From Desulfuromonas sp. (lineage in GTDB: Bacteria > Desulfobacterota > Desulfuromonadia > Desulfuromonadales > Geothermobacteraceae): a stretch of DNA of 40,727 nucleotides. The position numbers and the translations under genes are program-made. Positions 4,144-31,362 of the stretch are shown here, piece after piece. The stretch is taken from the NCBI GenBank assembly GCA_002868905.1, contig PKUA01000081.1, positions 1 to 40,727 of the forward strand, written 5' to 3'. How positions within the stretch are numbered: position 1 is the stretch's first letter; each line of letters begins with the position of its first letter. Below the pieces are notes generated by a model. It had not been told where the DNA came from. It searched no databases and was given only the letters and a program-made list of their open reading frames with translations.

Positions 4144-4194
4144 GACACGCCAAGCCCTCCAACCCCCTTTGCCATCAGCGGTCGGCTCAATTTC

Positions 4195-4350
4195 AGGCAG
4201 GCTTTCTGACTCCGGGATCACACCTCATCCTCCCCTTCCCCCAGGGCTTGATGACCCTGAAGTGGGTGCGCGCTTGGCGCTCGAGGATTCAGTCCCCCGT
4301 CACAGCGGCGGGTCCGTGGGAGAATTTCACTCCCTTTCCTGCACCTGAAA
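4195..4350 (-). ncRNA. Cobalamin riboswitch, cbiM-proximal copy
   Basis: On the minus strand the conserved blocks appear in order: GGGAGTGAAATTCTCC, CACGGACCCGCCGCTGTGA, then GAGTCAGAAAGCCTGCC near the 3' end. These match the cobalamin (B12) aptamer. A terminator hairpin follows at 4112-4143. It is the second of two B12 aptamers on the same leader, upstream of cbiMNQO. Confidence 0.93.
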
Positions 4351-4353
4351 CTG

Positions 4354-4392
4354 AAAAAGCCCGCATCGCCATTCTCAGGCAACGCGGGCTTT
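4354..4392 (-). terminator. Terminator of distal cobalamin riboswitch
   Basis: Minus-strand stem AAAGCCCGC/GCGGGCTTT (4384-4392 with 4356-4364) followed by TTTTTC. It separates the two B12 aptamers, so each aptamer appears to have its own terminator. Confidence 0.85.
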
Positions 4393-4455
4393 CCGTATTT
4401 AATAAGCCCGAGGACTCGACCTCCCGAAAACCCGGGGAGTTACTCGAATCATATC

Positions 4456-4612
4456 CGCAACGGCAGGTCTTCTGGCTCACACCTTAATCTCGGGATCGCC
4501 TTCCCGGCAATAGCCAGTGGCATCAGATCCCTCGTCGGCGTTTACAGCGGCGGGTCCGCGGGGGAGTTGCACCCCTCTTCCCTTTTCAGCCCAAACGGGC
4601 GCCAGCGGTCTT
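4456..4612 (-). ncRNA. Cobalamin riboswitch, promoter-proximal copy
   Basis: Minus-strand blocks GGGTGCAACTCCCCCGCGG, ACCCGCCGCTGTAA, GATGCCACTGGC and GAGCCAGAAGACCTGCC are textbook cobalamin aptamer elements. It is the first aptamer on the cbi transcript, about 20 bases after the predicted promoter. A terminator and a second aptamer follow. Confidence 0.95.
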
Positions 4613-4628
4613 TAATTCTATGCAAAAC

Positions 4629-28123: not shown

Positions 28124-28401
28124 TACTTTTTCTTTCGACAGGGGGAAGGAGAATCGCTTCAATTGCTGGCGTAAACTTAATTCCAAAGTGGCAGCGATAC
28201 GCTCGCCTCAAGTTTCCCTTATAGCATTTCACAAATCGAGATGTAAAATTCTCATCAATTGGACATGCTGTAACTGGACCACCCAATGCCGATGGATGCG
28301 CCTCTTCAACTTGCTCTCCTATGGTCTGATATCGACTTTTTCTTCAAACATGTTAAGTTGTCAGGGTGTTGCCCCGTTCAACTTCAGCAACCGGAGATAT
28401 C
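28124..28401. other. Divergent intergenic region
   Basis: This 278-base region separates the LysE-type gene (minus) from the receiver-PilZ gene (plus) and must carry both promoters. I see no confident -35/-10 pair, no aptamer and no strong hairpin. Confidence 0.4.
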
Positions 28402-29121
28402 ATGTCGAGTCGAAAAACAGTCCTGCTTGCCGATGATGTCAATCTGTTCCTCGAGTTGGAAAAGACCTTTCTGAGACGAACCGACATCGACATCGTCACC
28501 GCTGCAAATGGCAAAATTGCCCTGGAGCAAGCGAAAAAGCACAAGCCAGCCCTCGCTTTCATCGACCTTAACATGCCTGAAATGAATGGTGATGCCTGTT
28601 GCCGAGCTATCAAACAGGACGAAGAGTTGCGCCATATGGTCGTCTACATCGTAACCACCGTCAGCAATATTGAAGATTTGGCGCGTTGCGAACAAGCCGG
28701 CTGCGACGGAATCATTAACAAACCGATTAACCGGACGGAATTTCTCCAGGTCGCCCACTCCAACCTGGCAATCGAGATCCGCCGGGAACCACGCCACTAC
28801 GCCCAGGTTCGGGTCAGCTACGGGACCGAGCCGCAAAACCTCTTGACCGGCTACTCCATCAATATGAGCAGTGGCGGCCTCTTCATCGAGACAGGCACCC
28901 TTCTGGCAGAAGATGAACACCTGACCCTGGTGTTCCGCTTGCCGGAACGTGATAAACCGATCATCTGCCAGGGTCGGGTCGCCTGGACCAACCCACCGGA
29001 CAAGAAGAAAAAAAAGACTCTCCCGCCAGGGGTCGGAGTCCAATTTTTCGACCTCCGCCTCGACGACATGCAGTCCATCAGAACTTACCTGAATGAAAAC
29101 GACCTGAAGCCGTCCTGGTAA
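28402..29121 (+). CDS. Response regulator with receiver and PilZ domains
   Basis: A 239-residue regulator. Residues 1-120 are a receiver domain (LLADD at the acidic pocket, phospho-acceptor D55 in AFIDLNMPE, a Thr/Val strand, and KP near 108). Residues 125-235 are a PilZ domain with the RxxxR motif (R127 to R131) and N-M-S-S-G-G (N154 to G159), the c-di-GMP-binding signature. It has a KKKKK run before the last strand. The start ATG at 28402 follows CCGGAGAT. It is of the TIGR02266 type seen in myxobacteria and related delta-proteobacteria, and probably reads c-di-GMP under kinase control. Confidence 0.92.
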   Translation: MSSRKTVLLADDVNLFLELEKTFLRRTDIDIVTAANGKIALEQAKKHKPALAFIDLNMPEMNGDACCRAIKQDEELRHMVVYIVTTVSNIEDLARCEQAGCDGIINKPINRTEFLQVAHSNLAIEIRREPRHYAQVRVSYGTEPQNLLTGYSINMSSGGLFIETGTLLAEDEHLTLVFRLPERDKPIICQGRVAWTNPPDKKKKKTLPPGVGVQFFDLRLDDMQSIRTYLNENDLKPSW

Positions 29122-29284: not shown

Positions 29285-29313
29285 TTGACTCCGTGACGGC
29301 CATCTCTTATCCT
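29285..29313 (+). promoter_or_regulatory. Sigma-70 promoter of second GEMM-I leader
   Basis: TTGACT (29285-29290), 17-base spacer, TATCCT (29308-29313). Transcription would start a few bases before the riboswitch outer helix. The stretch 29122-29284 before it holds nothing I can identify. Confidence 0.7.
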
Positions 29314-29324
29314 GCAGTGAATAC

Positions 29325-29414
29325 TTAACTCACCGATAAGAGCAAAGGTGGAGCGATCCACTGACGCAAAGCCACGGGCCTCATTGAGGCAGCCGAGCTG
29401 CCGAAGAGAGTTGT
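29325..29414 (+). ncRNA. GEMM-I riboswitch, A20 (cGAMP-type) variant
   Basis: AACTC/GAGTT outer helix, AAGAGCAAAGG, stem GTGGA-GCGA-TCCAC with GNRA loop, GACGCAAAGCCACGGGCCT, then GGCAGCCGAGCTGCCGAAG: a full GEMM-I aptamer. As in the copy at 1034-1120, the base aligned with Vc2 G20 is A, the signature of cyclic AMP-GMP-selective GEMM-Ib. A terminator follows at 29449-29479 before a small STAS-like gene. Confidence 0.92.
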
Positions 29415-29448
29415 GATCCGTTTGCCTGAAATCCGGGGAAACTGAGAG

Positions 29449-29479
29449 AGCCTGTCTTCTACGATAAGACAGGCTTTTT
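29449..29479 (+). terminator. Riboswitch-linked terminator
   Basis: AGCCTGTCTT (29449-29458) and AAGACAGGCT (29466-29475) with a CTACGAT loop and T run. It is the expression platform of the second GEMM-I riboswitch. Confidence 0.9.
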
Positions 29480-29541
29480 CCGTTTGCAGGGTTTCAAGGC
29501 CGGCGAAAAGCAACTTCGGTAGAGATTCTACTGGAGAGACC

Positions 29542-29919
29542 ATGGGACAAATTGAAGAAATCTATCAACACAAAAAATTCGTGGGGCAAAAGGTCACGGG
29601 AATCCTTGATCCCGATGACGCGAATTCGATTGCCCGGCAAATCATCAATCTTGCCTACCTGTTTCCAGACAAAAACATCCTGGTTGACCTGAGAGAGACA
29701 ACTGTTTCGCTCGACTTTCTCCAACAGATGAACCTGGCCATGGAGATCGGCGAAATTCTTCCGGTCTTCAAAAACAAGGTCGCCCACCTGGTTCCGGACG
29801 ACGAAAAACGGCTATCCTTTGCCAGGCAATTTGAATCCTGCATGATTCTCAAAGGTTATTCCTACAAGGTCTTCAACAACTTCGACCAGGCGACTGAGTG
29901 GTTGTCCGAACCTTTTTAA
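29542..29919 (+). CDS. STAS-like small protein under GEMM-I riboswitch
   Basis: A 125-residue protein without signal or membrane segment. An alternating strand-helix pattern (GQKVTGILDPDDANSIARQI, NILVDLRET, RLSFARQFESCMILKGYSYKVFNNFDQATEWL) resembles SpoIIAA-like/STAS-type small proteins. It shares with 26276-26710 the ending F-N-x-x-x-x-A-x-E-W. ATG 29542 follows GGAGAGACC. Family not securely identified. The leader strongly suggests cyclic-dinucleotide-controlled expression. Confidence 0.8.
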   Translation: MGQIEEIYQHKKFVGQKVTGILDPDDANSIARQIINLAYLFPDKNILVDLRETTVSLDFLQQMNLAMEIGEILPVFKNKVAHLVPDDEKRLSFARQFESCMILKGYSYKVFNNFDQATEWLSEPF

Positions 29920-30057: not shown

Positions 30058-31362
30058 TCAGTCCGGAGTCGCCCGCCCCAAAAGTTCCATCAGGTGAATA
30101 ACCGGTTGAGGCATGTCCGCCTGTTTCAATCCCCAGGCGAGCTGCAGATGGCAACCGGGATTGGTTGTCACCAGGTAGTCGGCGTCGGTGGCGGCAACAT
30201 TGGCGAGTTTGCGATCGAGCACCTGCTGGCTCTCTTCGGAAAACTTCAGACCCCAGGTTGCGGCCGAGCCGCAACACCAGCTTGACTCCTTCATCTCCCG
30301 GAATTCGACACCGGGAATGGAACGGATCAGCTGCCGCGGCTGGGCGCTGACATTCTGAGCATGGCAGAGATGACACGGCTCGTGATAGGTGACGCTCACC
30401 TTGACCTCTTGCAACTCTTCGGTTCGCAAGCCGACCTCGGAGAGAAATTCATTGACGTCCCGCACCTTGCTGCGGAACAGCTCGAGCCGGGCGTGATCCT
30501 CTTCTTCGGCCAGCAACTCCTCGTACTCTTTGAGTGACGCACCGCAACCGGCGCAGTCGGTCACGATATAATCGACATCCTGGGAGAGGAACAGATCGAT
30601 ATTGAACTTCGCCAGCTCTCGTGTCGTCTCCCGGTCCCCTTCCGACATATGCGGAGCACCACAGCATTTTGCCTGGGCCGGAGTCACCACGTCGAATCCC
30701 TGACCGGCCAGCACCCGGACCGTCTGCCGCGACACGTCGGGATAGAGCAGGGTCATGACGCAGCCAAGGAAGAAGGCAACCCGGCCGCGTTTCTCACCCT
30801 TAGCCGGTGTCATCTCCGGCAACTGCCCCCGGAGCGGGGCGTCGAGTTTTGGCAGCATCCCTTCGGCTTTGTCCATCCAGTCGGGGCCGAGTTTGAGGAT
30901 ATGAGAATGCCGCACCAGCCACTGGATACCGAGCCGCTGGTAAAGTCGCGCCGGGAGCATCCCCGCTTCCAGCAAATCCGGATCAGGCAGCATCCGCTTC
31001 AGGATGAAATTGCGAAAACTTTTCGACAGGTGACCACCCGGGAAGACCTGGTGGGACTGGCTGCGGCAGACTTCCATCACCTCGCCGGCCTTGACGCCCG
31101 AAGGGCAGGCGGTGGTACAGGCGCGGCAATCGAGACAAAAGAAACTCTCCTGTTTCAGCGCCTCGGTGAAATCGAGATTCTCTTCGTGAACCGCACGCGC
31201 CAAGGCGACCCGGCCGCGCGGACTGCTCCGTTCCCGCCCGGTGAGGACAAAGGTCGGGCAGGTCGGCAGGCAAAAACCGCAGCGCATGCACTGCAGGACC
31301 GATTCGTAGGTCGGGGCATCCCCGGGGGCGAAATTCCCCTGTTTTTTTGTTTTGTCAGCCAT
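30058..31362 (-). CDS. GlcF-type (Fe-S) oxidoreductase, CCG domains
   Basis: A 434-residue iron-sulfur subunit of a membrane-associated 2-hydroxyacid dehydrogenase. It has two [4Fe-4S] ferredoxin motifs (C25-x2-C28-x2-C31-x3-C35 and CLDCRACTTACP) and two cysteine-rich CCG domains (AKCCGAPHMSEG with CAGCG; YHEPCHLC with SWCCGSAATWG and NPGCHLQL). It passes electrons from the FAD subunit to quinone or other carriers. Partner glcD-type gene lies upstream. Glycolate or lactate as substrate is an inference. Confidence 0.92.
   Translation of the reverse strand: MADKTKKQGNFAPGDAPTYESVLQCMRCGFCLPTCPTFVLTGRERSSPRGRVALARAVHEENLDFTEALKQESFFCLDCRACTTACPSGVKAGEVMEVCRSQSHQVFPGGHLSKSFRNFILKRMLPDPDLLEAGMLPARLYQRLGIQWLVRHSHILKLGPDWMDKAEGMLPKLDAPLRGQLPEMTPAKGEKRGRVAFFLGCVMTLLYPDVSRQTVRVLAGQGFDVVTPAQAKCCGAPHMSEGDRETTRELAKFNIDLFLSQDVDYIVTDCAGCGASLKEYEELLAEEEDHARLELFRSKVRDVNEFLSEVGLRTEELQEVKVSVTYHEPCHLCHAQNVSAQPRQLIRSIPGVEFREMKESSWCCGSAATWGLKFSEESQQVLDRKLANVAATDADYLVTTNPGCHLQLAWGLKQADMPQPVIHLMELLGRATPD

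Follow-up and report, generated by a model that had tools for sequence, protein, structure and literature searches.

The closest described counterparts of the element studied here are the GEMM-Ib riboswitches of Geobacter, such as those found before pgcA/GSU1761 and pilM, with which it shares the GEMM-I fold, an adenine at position 20 (A20), the use of a terminator and the presence of Hypr GGDEF genes. The contacts of the Geobacter cGAMP aptamer are reported to include U13-A14-C15 (PMC7288161), where the present leader has G-A-G, and a G20A GEMM-I aptamer has been described as binding cGAMP (PMC6274999, PMC7288161). Hypr enzymes are reported to have a serine as their signature and to require GGDEF, the combination of Ser and GGEEF being inactive, and the Geobacter cGAMP switches are reported to act ON in vivo (PMC6456294). 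In the pilM element, described as an ON switch, aptamer and terminator are mutually exclusive; in Cd1, the c-di-GMP OFF switch of Clostridioides difficile, the two coexist and compete with an antiterminator (PMC9262584).

The leader described here differs from the Geobacter elements in that its terminator is separate from the aptamer and its target is a soluble STAS protein. It also differs from Cd1, which has G20 and flagellar genes as targets, whereas the STAS leader has A20 and its direction is a prediction. As reported for Cd1, the terminator lies downstream and is compatible with the aptamer, and an antiterminator would use the aptamer 3′ strand (PMC9262584). Among described proteins, the predicted product shares its fold over the whole length of about 125 aa with the PF11964 / DUF3478 structures 2q3l and 2ook, although it scored below the family cut-off and identity was at most 20% in the structural alignments listed. 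With SpoIIAA, RsbV and RsbS it shares the STAS fold (Z 8 to 11), but it has neither the conserved serine before helix 2 nor an adjoining partner kinase gene.

Results

The STAS leader and its neighbours

The window, meaning the whole stretch of 40,727 nucleotides that was analysed (Desulfuromonas sp., contig PKUA01000081.1), contains a GEMM-I (c-di-GMP-I) aptamer core at 29331-29405 (+), which matched RF01051 in full length over all 87 model positions (60.8 bits, E 1.3e-9; gathering score 35 bits). An outer P1 helix read from the sequence, AACUC/GAGUU (29327-29331/29408-29412, +), extends the aptamer to 29327-29412. The covariance-model alignment placed the A of model position 11 (Vc2 position 20) at 29341, G21-C22 at 29342-29343, A47 at 29368 and a C in the C92 position at 29401 (+). 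The c-di-GMP-I-UAU model (RF03168) gave 61.0 bits, under its cut-off of 65.9, and the element carries A20/C92 instead of U20/U92. By this covariance-model evidence the element at 29331-29405 is confirmed as a GEMM-I / c-di-GMP-I riboswitch aptamer, a predicted cyclic dinucleotide sensor.

A promoter-like site of the sigma-70 type, TTGACT-17-TATCCT (29285-29313, +), identified by consensus match only (9/12 positions), ends 18 bases 5′ of the aptamer core; two such sites occurred in the 961 scanned bases, against a shuffle mean of 0.3 (sd 0.6). On the other side of the aptamer, sequence and folding indicate an intrinsic terminator (29450-29479, +) with a 9-bp stem (29450-29458/29466-29474), a loop at 29459-29465 and TTTTT at 29475-29479. 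The leader 29318-29480 folded better than 200/200 dinucleotide shuffles (z −3.82), much of which is supplied by the terminator; the hairpin at 29450-29479 was absent from the pattern-scan output over the 961 scanned bases. A Shine-Dalgarno-like GGAGAG (29533-29538, +) then precedes the ATG at 29542 of the ORF P0001 (29542-29919, +), for which a STAS-fold protein of 125 aa is predicted. Promoter, full aptamer with A20 and terminator had all been named in the first-pass annotation as lying before this gene, and all three stand.

The promoter-like site and the aptamer fall between the STAS gene and a gene encoding a receiver + PilZ protein (28366-29121, +; Pfam Response_reg 1.7e-22, PilZ 1.2e-15), the PilZ domain being of the c-di-GMP-effector type. 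The next gene downstream in the flanking-gene scan, encoding a 4Fe-4S/CCG protein (30058-31362), runs in the opposite direction to the STAS gene. The STAS gene thus appears to be its own, monocistronic transcription unit and the receiver-PilZ gene upstream a separate one. The sequence CUUCGGUAG is intact at 29514-29522 (+), eleven bases 5′ of the Shine-Dalgarno sequence. It could form 9 bp, one of them G-U, with CUGCCGAAG of the aptamer at 29398-29406, and a shorter match, CUUCGGU, was listed in the aptamer-tail duplex search; this complementarity is possibly a second, translational decision point, or chance.

Ligand specificity

A20 by itself is insufficient to name cGAMP as the ligand, and cGAMP, c-di-GMP or both are possible for this element. 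Two marks of the cGAMP-selective GEMM-Ib elements of Geobacter are present, namely A20 and, in the genome, Hypr GGDEF proteins with Ser for Asp. Absent from the leader are the flanking U and C of the selecting A (U13-A14-C15 in 4YAZ), which pair with GG and where the leader has G-A-G-C with GACGC, and a terminator sharing the aptamer 3′ strand (the ON layout). With G before and GC after A20, of the c-di-GMP type, the element resembles the cGAMP-binding G20A GEMM-I aptamer.

Fifteen GGDEF loci were found in the genome, and at the ten where the residue was readable it was Ser in two and Asp in eight; five were unreadable. Both Hypr-serine proteins, L049 and L050, have GGDEF, not GGEEF. L050 is a protein of 456 aa with a receiver-like N-terminal sequence and a GGDEF domain scoring 140 bits. 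The description of the riboswitch as cGAMP-type in the first-pass annotation is therefore supported in part, because A20 occurs together with these two proteins, and weakened because the other Geobacter cGAMP sequence marks and the terminator layout are missing. We regard cGAMP as probably the principal ligand.

In the class comparison outside the family of this genome, 20 lower-scoring stretches were read, two of which were not alignable, and in the 13 with A20 the next bases were CT in 11, CC in 1 and GC in 1. The first 30 loci of other class families held no clear A20 element. Compared elements were labelled Geobacter-like on the basis of family, aptamer sequence and published contacts.

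Direction of switching

In the STAS leader the whole terminator stands 3′ of the aptamer. The candidate antiterminator strand, GAAGA at 29403-29407 (+), may pair with UCUUC at 29455-29459, a suggestion that is weak alone; this pairing was part of the unconstrained MFE structure when transcripts stopped near 29464, before the terminator 3′ arm, and comprised 5 bp plus 2 after a bulge. The terminator loop is CUACGAU, so the CUUCGG of the relatives is missing. UCUUCGG, the complement of the aptamer end CCGAAGA, is a recurrent downstream motif of sister elements. In this terminator it is cut to UCUUC, and the case for an antiterminator is therefore weakest here.

For comparison, 133 elements were read, the best-scoring of the matches listed, a selection that favours G20 and in which 19 elements with a low orientation score were retained. 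Among them, CUUCGG was found downstream in 20/30 A20, 48/92 G20 and 0/10 CC-sort elements, and the aptamer-tail duplex was better than 95% of 60 simple shuffles in 5/30 A20 and 34/92 G20 elements. The corresponding duplex of the STAS leader came only to the 10% level of the shuffles, and the antiterminator was not upheld statistically for this element (5% level not reached). Automatic typing of the terminators of the 30 A20 elements with GC, again among the best-scoring matches listed, gave 23 separate, 5 overlapping and 2 mixed, some of the overlapping calls (L012, L155) having been cut short by an early run of U. In the Geobacter-like elements (A20 with CT or CC, n = 12), the terminator used the aptamer 3′ strand in 10/10 folded. 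The evidence as a whole leans slightly towards OFF for the STAS leader.

GEMM-I elements of the genome and their outputs

The genome (3.3 Mb) contained 16 RF01051 matches, 15 of them above the cut-off, with A20 in eleven and G20 in five, and the STAS-leader aptamer was among the six best-scoring. A CC/GG swap next to position 20 was seen in 3/5 of the G20 elements, L001, which precedes a di-haem cytochrome c peroxidase, and L008 and L013, which precede other large proteins. G20 with CC occurred in 9/133 elements (best-scoring matches listed), and the sequence downstream of L001, L008 and L013 repeats the aptamer P1/P3 strand.

Several A20 elements have other arrangements. L004 and L007 form a tandem pair before a ShlB-type two-partner secretion gene (G000:C56:3377-3720, −), and L005 (G000:C24:30196-30272, −) precedes the gene for a solitary 135-aa PilZ protein, which shares 44% identity across 110 aa with the PilZ half of the window's receiver-PilZ protein. 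L012 and L016 precede large proteins with no Pfam match. The scan of products covered the A20 elements other than L011 and L010, the latter being cut off by the end of its contig. A run of three GEMM-I elements (L009, L014 and L015; G000:C17:11616-12549, +), with an altered P2 edge GCACAGG..GTCGCAGAG, lies before a 198-aa protein with no Pfam match.

The STAS-leader element had been called the second GEMM of the window in the first-pass annotation; another one, L016, is indeed present at 1041-1115 (−), but its 34.9 bits fall just under the cut-off of 35. It has A20 and a U at the C92 position and is the only A20/U92 element among the 133 (best-scoring matches listed). A Vc2 aptamer engineered to carry both changes, G20A/C92U, is reported to bind c-di-AMP (PMC7288161, PMC9049102), and L016 is a natural candidate for altered specificity, or may be a decaying copy. 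Two cobalamin riboswitch aptamers stand in a row at 4179-4363 and 4443-4621 (−), with 81.2 and 98.9 bits.

In relatives of the order, L080, L087, L093, L079, L078 and similar elements are high-scoring, have G20 and end in GCCAGA/ACCAGA, not GCCGAA. No CUUCGG-type terminator was found nearby in their printed stretches, and this set is perhaps of the translational type.

The outputs of A20 elements in other genomes of the order were represented by 19 of 21 elements, two having been dropped with no convincing ORF; 20 of 90 G20 elements, drawn at random from the best-scoring matches listed, served for comparison. First ORFs were assigned mechanically, some perhaps wrongly, and genes were mostly cut at about 700 bases. 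Behind the A20 elements we found REC-PilZ (L143), REC-GGDEF (L181), EAL (L158) and REC (L183), with weaker domain matches to PAS (L134) and dCache (L172); behind the G20 elements were REC (L095), GGDEF (L099) and many exported Ig/fn3 proteins. At E ≤ 0.001, 6/19 A20 proteins had a signalling Pfam domain, against 2/20 G20 proteins (Fisher p 0.13), and above the Pfam cut-off the figures were 4/19 against 2/20 (Fisher p 0.41); an enrichment of signalling targets behind A20 was not established.

The STAS-fold protein

The 125-residue soluble STAS-like product suggested earlier was borne out by structure prediction. An initial model made with no alignment was poor (pLDDT 64.2) and was replaced by an AlphaFold2 model with six homologues (pLDDT 82.4, pTM 0.77). 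Foldseek matched 2q3l_A with E 1.4e-5 and 17 PDB chains at E ≤ 0.001, and in structural alignment the best match was 4qtp_B (Z 11.5, rmsd 2.4, 107 aligned), with 2q3l_B at Z 9.6. From this model, the product is predicted to have a STAS fold over its whole length. In sequence, PF11964 (SpoIIAA-like) scored 17.7 bits (E 0.0059), under the Pfam cut-off of 25, and matched 6/7 members of the homologue alignment A4 at E ≤ 1 (best 1.8e-5); a PDB sequence search gave no match.

Thirteen columns were invariant in nine homologues; D49, R51 and T53, which lie in the strand leading up to helix 2, are among them. A conserved phospho-serine at the start of helix 2 was not found, Ser standing at position 56 in 4/14 distinct homologues by a reading of the alignment with gaps nearby. 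No partner serine kinase gene was present among the flanking genes scanned, and the highest PF13581 score in the genome, 93.6 bits, belongs to a different contig, C64. With Ser at the SpoIIAA phospho-site in 4/14, the protein is not filed as an anti-sigma-factor antagonist; on the predicted structure it would act as an interaction module of the STAS type. The weaker Foldseek hits include SiaC (7e6g_F, E 0.036), which is STAS-like and activates a diguanylate cyclase; this is a lead only. In the open-access literature searched, no description of the function of this small STAS-fold family was found, nor was a c-di-GMP or cGAMP riboswitch paired with a STAS protein or anti-sigma factor antagonist found there.

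Conservation of the pairing

A single-sequence search of 136 genomes of the order and 58 relatives found one relative besides the gene itself, and the profile matched 11/277 class genomes and 8/395 phylum genomes, the genome studied being counted in each. Six further named STAS loci came from genome contigs and none from viral contigs. RNA families were scanned at 24 homologue loci (1 + 17 + 6), 23 of them distinct since L034 = L076, with 0.7 to 3 kb upstream covered; eight (L025-L032) were weak profile matches, and L037, L038, L039 and L041 and the duplicates L019 and L020 were left out.

A GEMM element stood directly before the STAS homologue at 0/24 scanned loci (23 distinct). A GEMM element does occur at L032, but it stands before other genes, 1.26 kb upstream of the homologue, and the intervening ORFs include one in the opposite orientation. 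The STAS gene was not found in four other genomes of the same family, and RF01051 was not found near the closest receiver-PilZ relatives in them (G001-G004), the nearest on the same contig in G004 being about 17 and 41 kb away. With 0/24, the homologue search behind GEMM elements proposed in the first-pass annotation went against a conserved pairing, and a conserved GEMM-STAS regulon was rejected on the loci scanned. The same annotation had called a small STAS-like protein an unusual output for such a riboswitch. This holds for the STAS protein, with 0/24 homologue loci directly behind GEMM, but less so for signalling proteins, which are recurrent A20 outputs in this order: a signalling output behind A20 elements is not exceptional, the STAS output is unusual.

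Discussion

The element is a known kind of switch; new are the STAS output and the combination of A20 with a c-di-GMP scaffold and a Cd1-type terminator, so that specificity and direction are both testable. In the explanation we prefer, to which as a whole we give about an even chance (roughly 0.5), an A20 GEMM-I riboswitch would control the monocistronic STAS-fold gene by transcription termination and in the OFF direction. The ligand would predominantly be 3′,3′-cGAMP made by the Hypr-type GGDEF enzymes of the cell, with c-di-GMP cross-talk possible because the remaining binding site is of the c-di-GMP type. Ligand binding would keep the aptamer 3′ strand engaged in P1 and so prevent its pairing with the terminator 5′ arm; the terminator, which has no overlap with the aptamer, might then form and shut the STAS gene off, this step being the weaker one. 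The STAS protein would take part in a signalling pathway by binding another protein rather than as a classical phospho-switch.

The natural ligand could instead be c-di-GMP, or c-di-GMP and cGAMP alike, sensed promiscuously by A20 in a c-di-GMP-type scaffold. The GC after A20 and the GC in the GACGC strand match c-di-GMP aptamers, a Geobacter riboswitch answering both ligands is mentioned in PMC6456294, and cGAMP riboswitches are said in PMC9262584 to bind c-di-GMP via a protonated adenine. Against this, A20 in 11/16 elements of the genome would be hard to explain if both nucleotides were equal for c-di-GMP, and the genome has Hypr-type GGDEF genes; we consider a promiscuous sensor plausible but short of even odds. 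It is somewhat more doubtful that the same riboswitch acts as an ON switch in the Geobacter manner, cGAMP preventing termination and turning the STAS gene on. The A20 cGAMP riboswitches of Geobacter are reported to raise expression with cGAMP (PMC6456294, PMC8835794) and the folding prediction for the STAS leader is ambiguous, but its terminator does not use the aptamer strand, unlike those of the 10 folded Geobacter-like elements and unlike that of L003, a G20 element of the same genome.

Improbable in our view is a relic, in which duplication or shuffling within the genome brought the aptamer to a STAS gene with which it has no selected functional link. No scanned STAS relative lies directly behind a GEMM element, the four relatives of the family lack the STAS gene and have no RF01051 near their closest REC-PilZ genes, and the antiterminator is degraded compared with sister elements; yet promoter-like site, full-scoring aptamer, terminator, Shine-Dalgarno sequence and ORF are in the correct order with no disrupting change, and the aptamer ranks among the six best of 16. 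The OFF switch answering mainly to cGAMP remains our preferred reading. It might be extended, as a long shot, to a second, separately built A20 set in the order, OFF on cGAMP and aimed partly at cyclic-dinucleotide signalling (PilZ, REC-PilZ, REC-GGDEF, EAL, STAS), the STAS protein being a partner-switch protein present only at low cGAMP.

If the ligand is cGAMP, its control would reach beyond exported cytochromes and surface proteins and include soluble signalling proteins. The locus would then also allow a simple test of two points: whether A20 suffices for a natural cGAMP switch when the other Geobacter changes are absent, and whether switches of this sort can act OFF. For the small STAS-fold family, the riboswitch offers a first functional handle in the form of a signal that sets expression.
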